Assembly (NCBI GenBank): GCA_016765135.1
Contig: JAESQN010000012.1
Location: 1 to 38,232, forward strand
Source of the DNA: Robiginitomaculum sp.
GTDB taxonomy: Bacteria; Pseudomonadota; Alphaproteobacteria; Caulobacterales; Maricaulaceae
DNA: 38,232 nucleotides
Reading direction: 5' to 3'
Each line of letters begins with the position of its first letter. Position 1 is the stretch's first letter. The translations under genes and the position numbers were made by a program. The notes under the pieces were generated by a model. The model saw only the letters and a list, made by a program, of their open reading frames with translations. It did no database searches and was not told the origin of the DNA. Below, in pieces: positions 3 through 38,232 of this stretch.

Positions 3-89
3 GCCCATAAGGGCTTGACACCGGACAATGCCTATTGGCAGAACAGACAAGAAATGGAAACCGACCAGATGATACAAAGTGTAGCTTAA
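3..89 (+). mobile_element. Possible C-terminal tail of an IS transposase (cut by window edge)
   Basis: An open frame enters from the left edge and ends at TAA 87-89. It encodes 28 residues, with HKGLTPDNAYW near the start. That stretch resembles the end of integrase-core (DDE) transposases of the IS3/IS481 type, in which an RPH...L...TP(A/D)xxY pattern follows the last catalytic Glu. Only the tail is visible, so neither catalytic residues nor a terminal inverted repeat can be checked. It sits just before a small excisionase-type gene and about 460 bp from a tRNA-Thr gene, which fits accessory DNA. It could equally be the end of an unrelated protein. Confidence 0.3.
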
Positions 90-102
90 AAAAGGTCGAA
101 AA

Positions 103-294
103 CTGTCCAATTATTGGGGAGCACCTCAGACAGTTGAGCAAGCTGCTAATTATTTAGGGCTGGCAGTATCAACTCTAAATAAATGGAGGTGTCTGGGCGA
201 GGGGCCCATCTTTATCAAAATGGGTAGGGCTGTTAGGTACAGCCAGAAAGACCTGAAAACCTACATAAAATGCCGTTCACTCAGTTGTACATGA
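103..294 (+). CDS. Small helix-turn-helix (AlpA/excisionase-like) DNA-binding protein
   Basis: About 63 residues ending at TGA 292-294. The reading TVEQAANYLGLAVSTLNKWR followed by GEGPIFIKMGRAVRY and DLKTYI matches the short MerR-like winged HTH family (HTH_17, AlpA/Xis type): helix-turn-helix first, then the strand-turn-strand wing with the usual GRxVRY motif. These proteins act as excisionases or transcription switches of prophages and genomic islands. There is no ATG in frame. The frame opens after a TAG at 82-84, and a CTG at 103 is preceded by AGG with 7-nt spacing, so CTG is the best start I can offer. A decayed or frameshifted 5' end is the alternative. No integrase is visible in the window. 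Confidence 0.6.
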   Translation: MSNYWGAPQTVEQAANYLGLAVSTLNKWRCLGEGPIFIKMGRAVRYSQKDLKTYIKCRSLSCT

Positions 295-34694: not shown

Positions 34695-37600
34695 TTACGG
34701 CGCCGGATCATGGTTTAATATGTCCGGCGGCGAAATTTCTTCCTTACGCCCCCCTATTCTGCCCCCGCCATCCTTGTCTAAAAGGGTGTTAGGTGCAGAA
34801 TTCTGTTGGGCCATTTGGACAATTTTTGTCGAAATGGCGGCTATATTGACCCTAGCCATGAGGTCTTCCGCCTCGGCCAGGTTAATGAGAATAGGTTTGG
34901 TGCCCGGTTCACTGTCCGGCGCTCCTGTCTTCTTGATGACAAGCTGGTATTCACCCGAAGGCAGATCATCAAATGCGAATTGTCCGAAACTGGTGGCAAA
35001 AGCCTTGAAACTGGCATCAGTTTGCGTATCCGTAAGCTCAAGTTTTGCGCCTTCAAGCCTGTGTTCGCCTTTATTATAGGCCCCATCACCATTGGTATCC
35101 ACAAAGGCAAAACCCAAAACTTGTCCCCGCTGCACGATGGGCAGCGGCACATCCGTGATACTGCCATCGTGAATGCTGGCTTTGGTGGAAATATCGTCAG
35201 CCAGACTAAACCCGAGCGGCAGGCTACGTCCGTCAACTTGCAATTCATGGATGCCAGTTTTGATGTTTTGTATCGTGTAATAGCCGGACGCATCGGTGCG
35301 CAGGCCTAGTCTCGTACCTTTTACGCGCACCAACACGCCGCCAATGCCCGGCTCATCATCTTGCCTGATACCGTCACGGTTTTTATCCAGGAACGCCCTG
35401 CCCTTTAACACACCGCTTCCGCCCTTGCTTTCATGAAATTTGCGCTTTTCGTTAAAGTCGAAACGCCCTTTCAGGAAAACGCCGAGCCGTTGATTACCTT
35501 GCAAATCATTGCGGTATGACAACCCCAAAGACATGTTTTTGTTGATCTTGAGCGTGCGCCCCAAGGAGACTGTCAAAAATGTGTCAGATCTATCTTCGGC
35601 ATTACCGGAAAAATTTTGTAAAATGCCCAAGCTGGCTTTGAGTGTGGTTTTCTCGCCAAGAACACGCCCGGAATCGAGATTTGCCACGACACCGCCGCGT
35701 ATAAGATTCCCCGTATCGCTCCAGGACGCCGAAACAGATGGCGCGATGCTCAACCTGGCATCCTTTGGCAAACCCAATCTATAAGGTTTAGCCGTAAGTT
35801 GGGCATCAATGCGCTGAACACGGTCGGCGCCGTCTGTGCGGATTGACGAGAATTGAGCGCGGGCCGTCGCATATTTGGTATCCTGGAACACACGGGCCGT
35901 AACTTGGTCGCCTGTTTCCGTGCTACCGTCCGCCAGCTTTTGGGTGTAGGCGGCAAAATCGGCGGAAATATTGGTGCCGGTTTTGCGCAAAGATGTATTG
36001 AGTGATACGCCGTAATTGCTGATTGATGTGTTCTCTGTGCCCGAAGTAAACAAACCGCTTCTGGTTTGGCTGATACGTGCGGAAATAGCCGGGCGTTCCA
36101 GCGGGCCTAAAATTTGCCCCGTCGTCAATTGCAAAGCGGCACCATATGTGGCGAAGTCCTGCCCGCGTTCGCGAGTGTCCGGCACCAATTGCTGGTTCAC
36201 AGCATTGGGGTCTTGCTGGATTAAATCTTCCGCGTCCAGATCCGAGCGCAGGAATTCTGCGCCGTCGTATTGGGCAAAAGCTTCAACATTGACTTTTCTG
36301 CCAGGCGTATAACGGGCATTGATGCTGGCGCGGGCGTCTACGGATTTCTCTCTGGCCGCACCGTTGAAATATCCAATATCGGCCCTGGCATTCCAGTTTA
36401 GTTTTTTGTCACGTTTGCGGCCCAACCGACCACTAATGGCGGATAACACCGCCATTTTATCATCGCTTAAACCGTCTGCCTTATAGGACAAGCCCGCTTC
36501 CCAGCCGTCTTTCGAGGCATAGCGGGCACCAGCAGCCACTCCGCTAAATTTCAGGCGGTTTTGATCTTCGCTAATTTTGCTGGAGCCAGACGTAGGGACA
36601 CCCGCCGCCAAAGCCCATCTGCCTTTGTCGTTTTCCTTGGCATAACTAATGCCTCTAATACGGCGAAGGCCGACCCCGTCAAGTTCACGCAGATCGGCTG
36701 AATAATCACCAAGAGAACCATAACCGCCCTTGACATGGGCGTAATCGAGGGAGAGCCACGACGGTTCGGCCTCCGCTATACTGCCAGGTAAATCCGGGAC
36801 TTCGTATCGCAATCGCCCGTTAAATCCCTTGGCCCTGAAATCCGTACTAACGGTGTTGAGCGTATCCGTTCCAATATTTAACTCAATAGTTTCAAAGGTT
36901 AGCGGTGTGTTCTTAGTGAGATCAGTGATCTTTCCTGTTGGAGATATCACATCTTTGAGCCGTCCATCAAGATTGATGTTTATGCGCGATGCACCGCCTT
37001 CAACGTCGATATTCGTCCCGGTCAAGGTTTCGATCGTACCAAGCGGCAACAGCAAATTAATAGGGTCGATATAGGTGATATCACGGGTGACACCAACCGG
37101 GCGGTCGTTCAGTTTAACCAACCCGGTGTCCAAATTTAGCTCGAAAACCGCGCTATCCTGAGAACGTTCAACACGGATAGACGTGCCACCGTCGATGATT
37201 TGCACACTGTGACCAAGCTCTCTGGCTATGGGGCGCAGGGGCAGCAGCATAACCGAACCAATAGCCCTTGGCCCCGGTTCCACATTACCGAGCGGGATAT
37301 CATTAACGAATATCTCGAACCCCGTAGCTACCTTCAAACGTGGGTCGAGTTCAAAATTGATCCGCTTTTCGTCCTGGTCAATTTTGCCGATAGCACCCGA
37401 CATAACCGCAATAGCATTGGGGGTGAGGTTTATCTTCCCTACGCTTATTTCGCCGTAATGGCTTAGCTTGCCAAGGGTGCGGCCATTTGCTTTGACAATT
37501 CCGGTTTCAGTATAAAGCTCCATGACCGTGCCGTCCTGGGAGCGGCGAACAACCAGCACACCTTCATTAATATTATACTCAAATTCATTATTGAGAGCTT

Positions 37601-37913
37601 TGAAAATAGGCTCGGCCCGCACATAAAACTTGCCGTCCTCTCCGGTGCTAACATCCGCTTTCAAGACTTCGCCCTCAAGATTGACCTGAAATTCCGGAGC
37701 CAATTCGGCCATCAATACTGGTATTTCCTGAATTGTTTCGGGTTTTACTTCTTGTGCATAAGCTACTGGTGAAGCTATTACGAACAGGCAAGCGAACAGG
37801 CTGAGTAAGAAAATACCCAGTTTTTTCAGGCTATTAACGCCGTTATGTGTGGTGAGGCCCCTTAGGGCCTTTCCGGCATATTCTGGGTCATTTGATGAGC
37901 CATATCTGTTCAT
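34695..37913 (-). CDS. Large predicted outer-membrane beta-barrel protein with SdrD-B-like repeats
   Basis: 1072 residues from ATG 37913. The frame stays open to GTG 38132 through a palindromic element, so the start is uncertain. Signal peptide with hydrophobic core 31-50 and AYA-Q cleavage near 53. Two homologous segments follow (about 94-193 and 218-320; compare VVRRSQDGTVMELYTETGIV with IRVERSQDSAVFELNLDTGLV), similar in pattern to copper-amine-oxidase N-terminal-like stalk domains. About 330-825 is Gly/Ser-rich alternating sequence typical of beta-barrels (GVGLRRIRGISYA, GLSYRNDLQGNQRLGVFLKG). Two C-terminal SdrD-B/carboxypeptidase-regulatory-like domains start at about 832 and 930, each with a DxNxDG loop (DKNRDG, DTNGDG). 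Usher-like secretion pores combine a barrel with such domains, but no pilin or chaperone gene is visible. Function unknown. Confidence 0.75.
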   Translation of the reverse strand: MNRYGSSNDPEYAGKALRGLTTHNGVNSLKKLGIFLLSLFACLFVIASPVAYAQEVKPETIQEIPVLMAELAPEFQVNLEGEVLKADVSTGEDGKFYVRAEPIFKALNNEFEYNINEGVLVVRRSQDGTVMELYTETGIVKANGRTLGKLSHYGEISVGKINLTPNAIAVMSGAIGKIDQDEKRINFELDPRLKVATGFEIFVNDIPLGNVEPGPRAIGSVMLLPLRPIARELGHSVQIIDGGTSIRVERSQDSAVFELNLDTGLVKLNDRPVGVTRDITYIDPINLLLPLGTIETLTGTNIDVEGGASRININLDGRLKDVISPTGKITDLTKNTPLTFETIELNIGTDTLNTVSTDFRAKGFNGRLRYEVPDLPGSIAEAEPSWLSLDYAHVKGGYGSLGDYSADLRELDGVGLRRIRGISYAKENDKGRWALAAGVPTSGSSKISEDQNRLKFSGVAAGARYASKDGWEAGLSYKADGLSDDKMAVLSAISGRLGRKRDKKLNWNARADIGYFNGAAREKSVDARASINARYTPGRKVNVEAFAQYDGAEFLRSDLDAEDLIQQDPNAVNQQLVPDTRERGQDFATYGAALQLTTGQILGPLERPAISARISQTRSGLFTSGTENTSISNYGVSLNTSLRKTGTNISADFAAYTQKLADGSTETGDQVTARVFQDTKYATARAQFSSIRTDGADRVQRIDAQLTAKPYRLGLPKDARLSIAPSVSASWSDTGNLIRGGVVANLDSGRVLGEKTTLKASLGILQNFSGNAEDRSDTFLTVSLGRTLKINKNMSLGLSYRNDLQGNQRLGVFLKGRFDFNEKRKFHESKGGSGVLKGRAFLDKNRDGIRQDDEPGIGGVLVRVKGTRLGLRTDASGYYTIQNIKTGIHELQVDGRSLPLGFSLADDISTKASIHDGSITDVPLPIVQRGQVLGFAFVDTNGDGAYNKGEHRLEGAKLELTDTQTDASFKAFATSFGQFAFDDLPSGEYQLVIKKTGAPDSEPGTKPILINLAEAEDLMARVNIAAISTKIVQMAQQNSAPNTLLDKDGGGRIGGRKEEISPPDILNHDPAP

Positions 37914-38129
37914 CCGGGCAGGCGCGTGCCGCAGGGCGATGCCAAAGCATCGGACAAGGCGCGCAACGCACCCGGTGGACAGATATGGCTCACCGAAGGC
38001 TGGTTTCTCCCGCACGCTGGACGTCGTTGACCCCCGATTGTGGCCAATAAGGCCACTGCACGTGGCCCGCCTAGCCAGCGAACGGGAGAAACCAGTCAAA
38101 TGGCCCAGAATATGCCGGAAAGGCCCTAA
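37862..38129. repeat. 268-bp structured element with three long stems
   Basis: The outer arms 37862-37894 and 38097-38129 are reverse complements over 33 nt with one mismatch. Inside are two further perfect 13-bp stems side by side: 37897-37909 with 37979-37991, and 38000-38012 with 38083-38095. The first inner arm carries a tip hairpin CGATGC/GCATCG; the second carries GCTGG/CCAGC (38016-38020, 38075-38079) and TGGCC/GGCCA (38041-38055). Overall a three-way junction. It covers the 5' end of the large outer-membrane protein gene. 38130-38232 beyond it shows no recognisable gene; an open minus-strand frame entering from the right edge stops inside the element. Confidence 0.85.
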
Positions 38130-38232
38130 CACTCGGGGGCTTCCATGCGCTGGCGGCAGGTTGCATCATACGCACATTGGGCTTTTTGCCTAACGGGTAC
38201 AGCAGACCAACCACCGCGCAAGGAATTATATA

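Follow-up and report, generated by a model that had tools for sequence, protein, structure and literature searches.

A 262-bp palindromic element fused in frame to a large gene of Robiginitomaculum is very probably a geneless miniature transposon with a conserved two-hairpin core

Main finding

The palindromic feature near the right end of the window (the whole stretch of DNA analysed, 38,232 nucleotides of a Robiginitomaculum sp. contig) is very probably one copy of a geneless miniature transposon, presumably moved by an IS630-family enzyme, that was inserted at a TA dinucleotide and fused in frame to a gene. It is a real palindromic structure and neither a riboswitch nor a chance palindrome. 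The insertion itself is ordinary in principle, and the family to which it belongs is apparently undescribed and widespread, with an unusual core and exchangeable ends. No description of the family was found in the open-licence literature searched, judging by titles and the first parts of abstracts, which is weak evidence. The features of the element and of its host gene are collected in Table 1.

Table 1. Coordinates of the element, its parts and the host gene in the window
Feature	Position	Strand	Basis
Host gene, 1145 codons, probable start GTG at 38132–38130; codons 3–90 are the element plus one TA	34695–38132	−	Reading frame, orthologue alignment, empty sites
ATG within the element (candidate alternative start), codon 74; the host part resumes 17 codons later, at codon 91	37911–37913	−	Translation
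Whole element, 262 bp	37865–38126	+ (P2-to-P3 orientation)	Comparison with five empty sites and other copies
TA target-site duplication, copy 1	37863–37864		Single TA at empty sites
TA target-site duplication, copy 2	38127–38128		Single TA at empty sites
Outer stem, left arm (terminal inverted repeat, with TA)	37862–37895	+	Pairs with 38096–38129, one mismatch in 34
Outer stem, right arm (terminal inverted repeat, with TA)	38096–38129	−	Pairs with 37862–37895
Hairpin P2, inverted paralogue of P3	37896–37992	−	13-bp perfect basal stem; opposite-strand R1 matches in related copies
Linker between hairpins, CCGAAGG	37993–37999		Alignments of copies
Hairpin P3, conserved internal loop ACGTCGTT opposite GCCTAG	38000–38095	+	Pair covariation and model R1

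Structure of the element

The outer arms are 97% complementary over 34 nt and are separated by 200 nt. Two further inverted repeats are found inside (37891–37930 with 37958–37997, and 38000–38020 with 38075–38095), and the hairpins P2 and P3 are built on perfect 13-bp basal stems, formed by 37896–37908 with 37980–37992 and by 38000–38012 with 38083–38095, respectively. The inverted-repeat search thus recovers the 33-bp closing stem and the two 13-bp inner stems that the initial annotation had described within 268 bp. As DNA, the element folds with −102.6 kcal/mol compared with −48.3 ± 3.7 kcal/mol for shuffled sequences (z = −14.5; 0 of 200 shuffles as good), and the RNA of the minus strand reaches z = −14.1, in line with the earlier statement that the pairing goes far beyond chance. 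A chance or one-off palindrome is practically out of the question in view of this fold and is already refuted by the dozens of dispersed copies. At 262 bp, without a transposase gene and with terminal inverted repeats, the element has the size and the ends of a MITE.

Empty sites and in-frame fusion

The insertion site is seen in its empty form in the orthologues of the host gene. A single TA is present in five congeneric orthologues (L028, L029, L030, L031, and L033) out of the six orthologues with a 5′ region, and in these five the stop codon of the upstream gene overlaps the GTG start codon (GTGCTAA, GTGCTAG or GTGTTAG). In the sixth orthologue (L032) the upstream sequence has diverged too far for a judgement, and a seventh (L034) has no 5′ end. 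The flanks in the window are the same as those of the empty-site orthologues, except that this TA has become two, one on either side of the element. When the window was aligned with L029, the best score was obtained with a 2-bp duplication removed (194.0, against 189.5 with none and 191.5 with 3 bp removed). The stop codon of the upstream gene is preserved, since it is now made of the TA of the target and a G of the element.

On the side of the host gene, GTG-TTA comes first, the 88 codons contributed by the element follow, and the host sequence resumes with AGG GGC CTC. Codons 2 and 3 are thus separated by exactly 88 added codons, and the reading frame was preserved because the 262 bp of the element and the 2 bp of one TA make 264 bp, or 88 codons without a stop. 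The minus-strand frame is unbroken across the whole element, as the initial annotation had seen and as the translation confirms. In alignments with the protein of the window, orthologues that include a 5′ part match from residue 87–95 onward only. At the level of sequence, the earlier suggestion that the element was recruited as the N-terminus of the gene is therefore borne out, and the element would form a new N-terminus whose extension is translated either from the GTG or from the internal ATG. The native start is probably the GTG, just upstream of the element. The ATG chosen previously does lie inside the element, and it may be a real candidate start because a signal-peptide-like stretch, read by eye, begins about 32 residues from it compared with 105 residues from the GTG. 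The host gene had also been called a large outer-membrane protein gene. Its size stands, while "outer-membrane" is unproven: the Pfam domains of the protein are SdrD_B, carboxypeptidase-regulatory-like and Cu_amine_oxidN1, and the product is predicted to be an exported, large secreted or surface protein.

The empty sites also bear on the possibility that the element is a structured RNA leader, riboswitch-like or protein-binding, which evolved to control the host gene. The very stable fold of the mRNA strand and the compensatory changes across copies would suit such a leader, but the element is missing at this site in the five congeneric orthologues and its other copies lie at other loci. Furthermore, a scan of the window with Rfam at gathering scores gave two tRNAs only, none at the element, and when nine loci were scanned with E-values of up to 1 allowed, the three weak matches obtained all lay outside the elements. 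A known RNA family was rejected on these grounds, in agreement with the earlier remark that no known riboswitch is recognised. We regard a dedicated mRNA leader, which the initial annotation had considered, as very unlikely.

Dispersed copies and distribution

A second full copy is present in the same genome (2.87 Mb in 52 contigs) and is 86% identical. Within the genus, copies were found by BLASTN in five of 14 genomes, the own genome included. Among 61 genomes (the own genome and 60 relatives) six were matched, again counting the own genome; one of them, G027, has a chance-like match of 29 bp only, which leaves four other congeneric genomes. The copies are thus dispersed, and the pattern of one copy always preceding this gene, which would have spoken for a cis-regulator, is not what the BLASTN comparison returned. 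Together with the target-site duplications and the empty sites, this supports the earlier proposal of a non-autonomous mobile element. The listed copies are 257–268 bp long, and six are of 282–293 bp.

More distant copies were searched for by hairpin P3. A degenerate P3 pattern was found in 21 stretches of named genome contigs, including two Anderseniella MAGs and one Hyphomicrobiales MAG. A covariance model, R1, was built from hairpin P3 only, using 20 copies. With the stricter filters, it matches 12 of 385 alphaproteobacterial genomes, in 12 families and with the own genome included, and 8 of 398 genomes of a sample of the phylum, again including the own genome, four of them in one family outside the class; the remaining 373 and 390 genomes, respectively, gave no match. 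Some of the matches are weak (E = 7e-4 in G376 and 4e-4 in G467). Three MAGs are rich in matches, with 19, 34, and 39, corresponding to 13, 27, and 30 distinct places after matches on both strands are merged. The window element has no match in plasmid and phage collections and the P3 pattern none in viral contigs, and a plasmid- or phage-borne element was rejected accordingly. When four related elements were compared with plasmids, one partial, unannotated match was obtained (63 of 268 nt, Agrobacterium).

The conserved two-hairpin core

In copies with recognisable ends, the parts come in the order terminal stem, P2, short linker, P3, terminal stem. Although R1 was built from P3 only, it detects P2 on the opposite strand in related copies (for example L011, L007, L012, L010, and L016), reaching 52 bits for the P2 match at 1502–1631 of L011; P2 and P3 are thus inverted paralogues, and their stems covary. 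In the window and Anderseniella copies, R1 matches the place of P3 and does not reach P2. Orientation by motif was possible for 43 of the 62 copies with recognised paired ends (see below); among these, the P2 motif is found in 33 and the P3 motif in 42, and the other 19 copies are excluded from both counts.

In the P3 alignment, 91.1% of the cells are paired, and both partners have changed in 22 of 32 pairs. When the 3′ side was slid by 1–3 columns as a control, 31–39% of the cells were paired and 3–7 pairs had double changes. The number of further pair types, 36 compared with 32.9 in shuffles, is not clearly above expectation, since 51 of 500 shuffles reach 36. For 16 full copies, RNAalifold gives double changes in 46 of 82 pairs. 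Homologues with compensatory changes, whose absence would have spoken for a chance palindrome, are thus at hand. Across the 20 close P3 copies, the internal loop ACGTCGTT/GCCTAG hardly changes; in more distant ones it varies, for example to GGCGTCGTT.

Mispairs give a hint of the strand on which the hairpins are read. With pairing scored strand-neutrally, same-strand mispairs counted once for each column and type in three groups of 11, 9, and 11 copies amount to 21 A-C and 8 G-T in P3, 10 G-T and 6 A-C in P2, and 8 of each in the outer stem; these counts are small and the copies are related. The opposite skew of P2 and P3 fits hairpins of single-stranded DNA, each read on its own strand, and is suggestive only. 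An RNA made from one strand is expected to favour G-U over A-C in both hairpins, but P3 skews in the opposite direction, which is a further point against the RNA leader. The raw counts (P3, 92 A-C and 17 G-T; P2, 24 A-C and 86 G-T; outer stem, 32 A-C and 22 G-T) were rejected as strong evidence, because the rows are related and some P2 matches are among the P3 rows.

Several copies deviate from the common layout. Single hairpins are lost in L021 and L022, and both are lost in L219. At one locus shared by two Anderseniella MAGs (L219, 128–184, in G792:C98 and L224 in G791:C12), the outer palindrome alone is present in one and a truncated element in the other, apparently showing decay through hairpin loss. 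In G363 the parts are shuffled: judged by eye, L096 has the core type of L094, L095, and L097 inside a different outer stem. L143 consists of one element nested in another of the same architecture with other stems, and R1 matches both. In L222 (303–403) and L223 (about 150–250), both of G792, the conserved GCCTAG of P3 is split by a two-hairpin insert of about 100 bp; counting these two and L143, this spot of P3 is a repeated landing site. L014 (G002:C9) has P2 in the reverse of its usual direction (query 47–143, minus strand, 95%) and the rest as in the other copies, which is what a flip of hairpins between inverted repeats would look like. The sequence GANTC, the CcrM methylation site of alphaproteobacteria, occurs in only 2 of the 62 element cores of about 200 nt each. 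It is possibly avoided in the cores, which are from related copies.

Terminal stems and target duplications

The ends were scanned for complementarity of at least 19 of 24 nt, with three end types enclosing the core, and collection of the loci gave 62 distinct copies; some R1 matches (e.g., L080, L083, and L084) are absent from this set. For GAGC ends, an exact 2-bp TA duplication is found in 28 of 33 copies and a 3-bp duplication in none. For TACC ends, an exact 3-bp TNA duplication (TAA, TTA or TGA) is found in 18 of 24 copies and a 2-bp duplication in none of the 24 in that parse. A perfect duplication is missing in the remaining five GAGC and six TACC copies. The GGGYC ends, which include the window copy, show a TA duplication in 2 of 5.

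Because the search for TACC ends fixes a TA at the border, an empty site was checked separately. The TACC copy L221 aligns best with the empty site L068 when 3 bp are removed (148.4, compared with 144.4 for 2 bp). The alternative parse of TACC ends, with a TA duplication and an element of the form CC..GG, was rejected, since the empty site reads GGAG-TGA-CACATG and not GGAGTTATATTAA. The GAGC copy L016 was compared with the empty site L067, which has a single TA with an extra T adjacent; owing to this T, no removal scores slightly higher, with 112.5 versus 110.5 for 2 bp, and the scores do not discriminate between the two. One core is thus, by these alignments, carried by ends with two target-duplication lengths. 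Both end kinds are found inside one MAG, in G791 (L183 and L197) and in G793 (L176 and L182).

The terminal stem is highly variable between copies yet self-complementary. Over 24 nt its self-complementarity averages 93%, a figure that is biased upward by the choice of copies at 19 or more of 24, and the median identity between copies is 37.5%. This gap, together with the strand-symmetric mismatches of the outer stem, speaks for arm-to-arm correction by template switching at quasi-palindromes, which would keep the pairing in place of selection and make the covariation uninformative on function. The unpaired loop ACGTCGTT/GCCTAG, however, is among the most conserved columns of the 20 close P3 copies and is not explained by correction alone, and P2 and P3 have a modest strand bias. 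That correction keeps the pairing is a possibility to which we give some, though clearly minor, weight, and it is compatible with the mobile-element explanation preferred here.

Other ends were encountered as well. The relatives L159, L160, and L162, from family f189 outside the class, have ends like GGGCCTGTTAAAAC and no clear target duplication in any of the three; the motif of L159 and L162 is CTGCGTTRT../TGCCTTGCAG. Solo arms of the window end type (TAGAGCSTTTCCGGTGTATTTTG, with 2–3 mismatches) are found at G000:C39:158992, G000:C7:111747, G006:C37:9170 and 13394, G007:C14:23096, and G003:C1:115654. The partner arm is absent in the stretches read, and some of these arms overlap or abut the 3′ ends of genes. 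They are probably remnants. A 4.2-kb interval in G006 (L163), considered as an "autonomous" element, was rejected: by eye it looks like ordinary host genes, and its ends were taken as solo arms.

Partner transposons

The probable link to IS630 is judged from target and ends. A TA duplication, as expected of an IS630-derived MITE, is found by comparison of the window with its empty sites and in the 28 GAGC copies. In G007, L043 and L046 hold a transposon of 1074 bp from TA to TA with two ORFs matching IS630 family models. The NCBIfam IS630 model has a cut-off of 100 bits, which one ORF passes with 136 bits and the other misses with 53 bits; the ORFs also match Pfam DDE_3 and HTH_Tnp_IS630. The immediate flanks of L043 and L046 are identical, so that they may be one duplicated locus. 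In the same genome, the single available end of a sibling half-copy of the GAGC type, L023, equals one end of this transposon at 21 of the last 22 positions; this is the one shared end, and for the window's own end type no such partner was found. The core has no match in ten loci with IS630-type transposases, the L043/L046 transposon included, and a simple internal deletion of them therefore does not explain the core.

An autonomous transposon with the window end type was not found in the own genome, where one DDE_3 gene (L041) was detected without such ends. In five other genomes of the genus, ends of the window type were seen in no other form than as arms of elements or, within the stretches examined, as solo arms. 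Among 15 DDE_3 loci including L041, TA-GAGC candidate ends are present in two (L100 and L101), other candidates in six, and none in seven. In L049 (G007:C37:21029–21519), a partial IS630-type transposase gene ends right against a GAGC-ended element, at a CTAG.

For TACC ends, a 3-bp TNA duplication, presumably typical of some IS5 groups, is found in 18 of 24 relatives and at one empty site. A search of seven genomes returned 21 PF01609 loci, located in five of them, and no autonomous partner was found among these loci. The TACC relatives are not classed as IS5-derived.

Movement of another kind would be that of a REPIN-like doublet. Here a tyrosine (HUH) transposase would recognise the hairpins as folded single-stranded DNA, and the outer stem would be no more than the usual landing palindrome. 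The inverted paralogy of P2 and P3 and their opposite strand bias would be expected of such a doublet, and for Anabaena variabilis the part of PMC3733652 consulted describes REP dimers within long palindromes that end in TA. However, the target duplications lie at the outer stem and not at the hairpins, so that the mobile unit includes the stem; the stem end of one copy matches an IS630 transposon; and the coreless palindrome L219 shares its locus with the truncated L224, as expected of a deletion remnant. A REPIN-like doublet thus appears improbable.

Comparison with known systems

By layout and target, the element of the window is a MITE close in its working to RUP and IS630-Spn1. RUP of Streptococcus pneumoniae is a 107-bp MITE with IS630-Spn1 as its proposed mobiliser, and in the available part of the source it is likewise small, with a TA target, and its terminal repeats resemble those of a member of the IS630 family (PMC2229807). 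It differs in its length of 107 bp; the window family has two covarying hairpins inside, and the same core is also found between ends that duplicate TNA.

Rickettsia palindromic elements (RPE) and other protein-coding palindromes share the in-frame insertion that adds an element-encoded segment, as far as the consulted parts of PMC10969869 and PMC2229807 describe them. RPE are about 150 bp and are repeatedly inserted in frame, whereas one in-frame case, at the extreme 5′ end of a gene, is shown for the window family. The CGTC/GTAG REP dimers, REPINs and the GTAG-15 dimers of A. variabilis are similar in having an inverted hairpin pair, sometimes in a longer palindrome (PMC3733652, in part). 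They are described there as 20–40 bp with the tag at the foot, whereas the hairpins here are of about 95–110 nt with a conserved internal loop, transposon-like ends and target duplications. In particular, GTAG or CGTC at the foot defines REPs and REPINs; here CGTC is in an internal loop, and the hairpins fall outside that definition.

Caulobacter CIR, also from alphaproteobacteria, has two long inverted-repeat arms and a linker but is without a closing outer stem in the portion of PMC2229807 seen. CIR carries GANTC, and none is present in the window element, which is thus not placed among CIR. Correia/NEMIS and ERIC are small MITE-like repeats, with TA at the termini for Correia and ERIC (PMC2229807, in part). 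A two-hairpin core is unrecorded for Correia/NEMIS, ERIC and Nezha in the portions of the sources compared. An integron attC site, suggested by GTT/CCTAAC motifs, was rejected by eye against the attC consensus, since the motif order is reversed. Nezha is also a small MITE-like repeat.

Proposed explanation and significance

In the preferred explanation, the outer stem would represent terminal inverted repeats that are read in trans by an IS630 (Tc1/mariner-like) DDE transposase, with a TA at the point of insertion being duplicated; for the window's own end type, transposition in trans by an IS630-type enzyme is what we infer. The core of two inverted-paralogue hairpins would sit between the repeats and may act as folded single-stranded DNA. 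In the window, the TA hit by the insertion would be the one at which the stop codon of the upstream gene and the GTG of the gene for a large secreted or surface protein overlap. This gene would then encode an element-derived N-terminal extension or start at the ATG within the element. The TACC-ended relatives would be moved by another transposase family.

A more far-reaching proposal, which we put forward tentatively and with more doubt than conviction, is that the core is an independent selfish module selected for its folded single-stranded DNA. Such a module would have picked up or swapped terminal repeats time and again, drawing on two or more transposase families that are unrelated, and would ride different transposons in Alphaproteobacteria and one other proteobacterial family.

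MITEs are usually viewed as internally deleted copies of transposons with a filler interior. Here it is the interior that is conserved and covaries, and the ends can be exchanged, with target duplications of two lengths. The window copy appears to be a clean example of a surface or secreted protein having gained its N-terminus from an element, with both overlapping genes left unbroken. The unusual part is one conserved core on ends suited to two transposase types, which raises the testable question of whether bacterial mini-transposons carry functional cargo structures that aid their movement, for example hairpins at which single strands become exposed or replication stalls.
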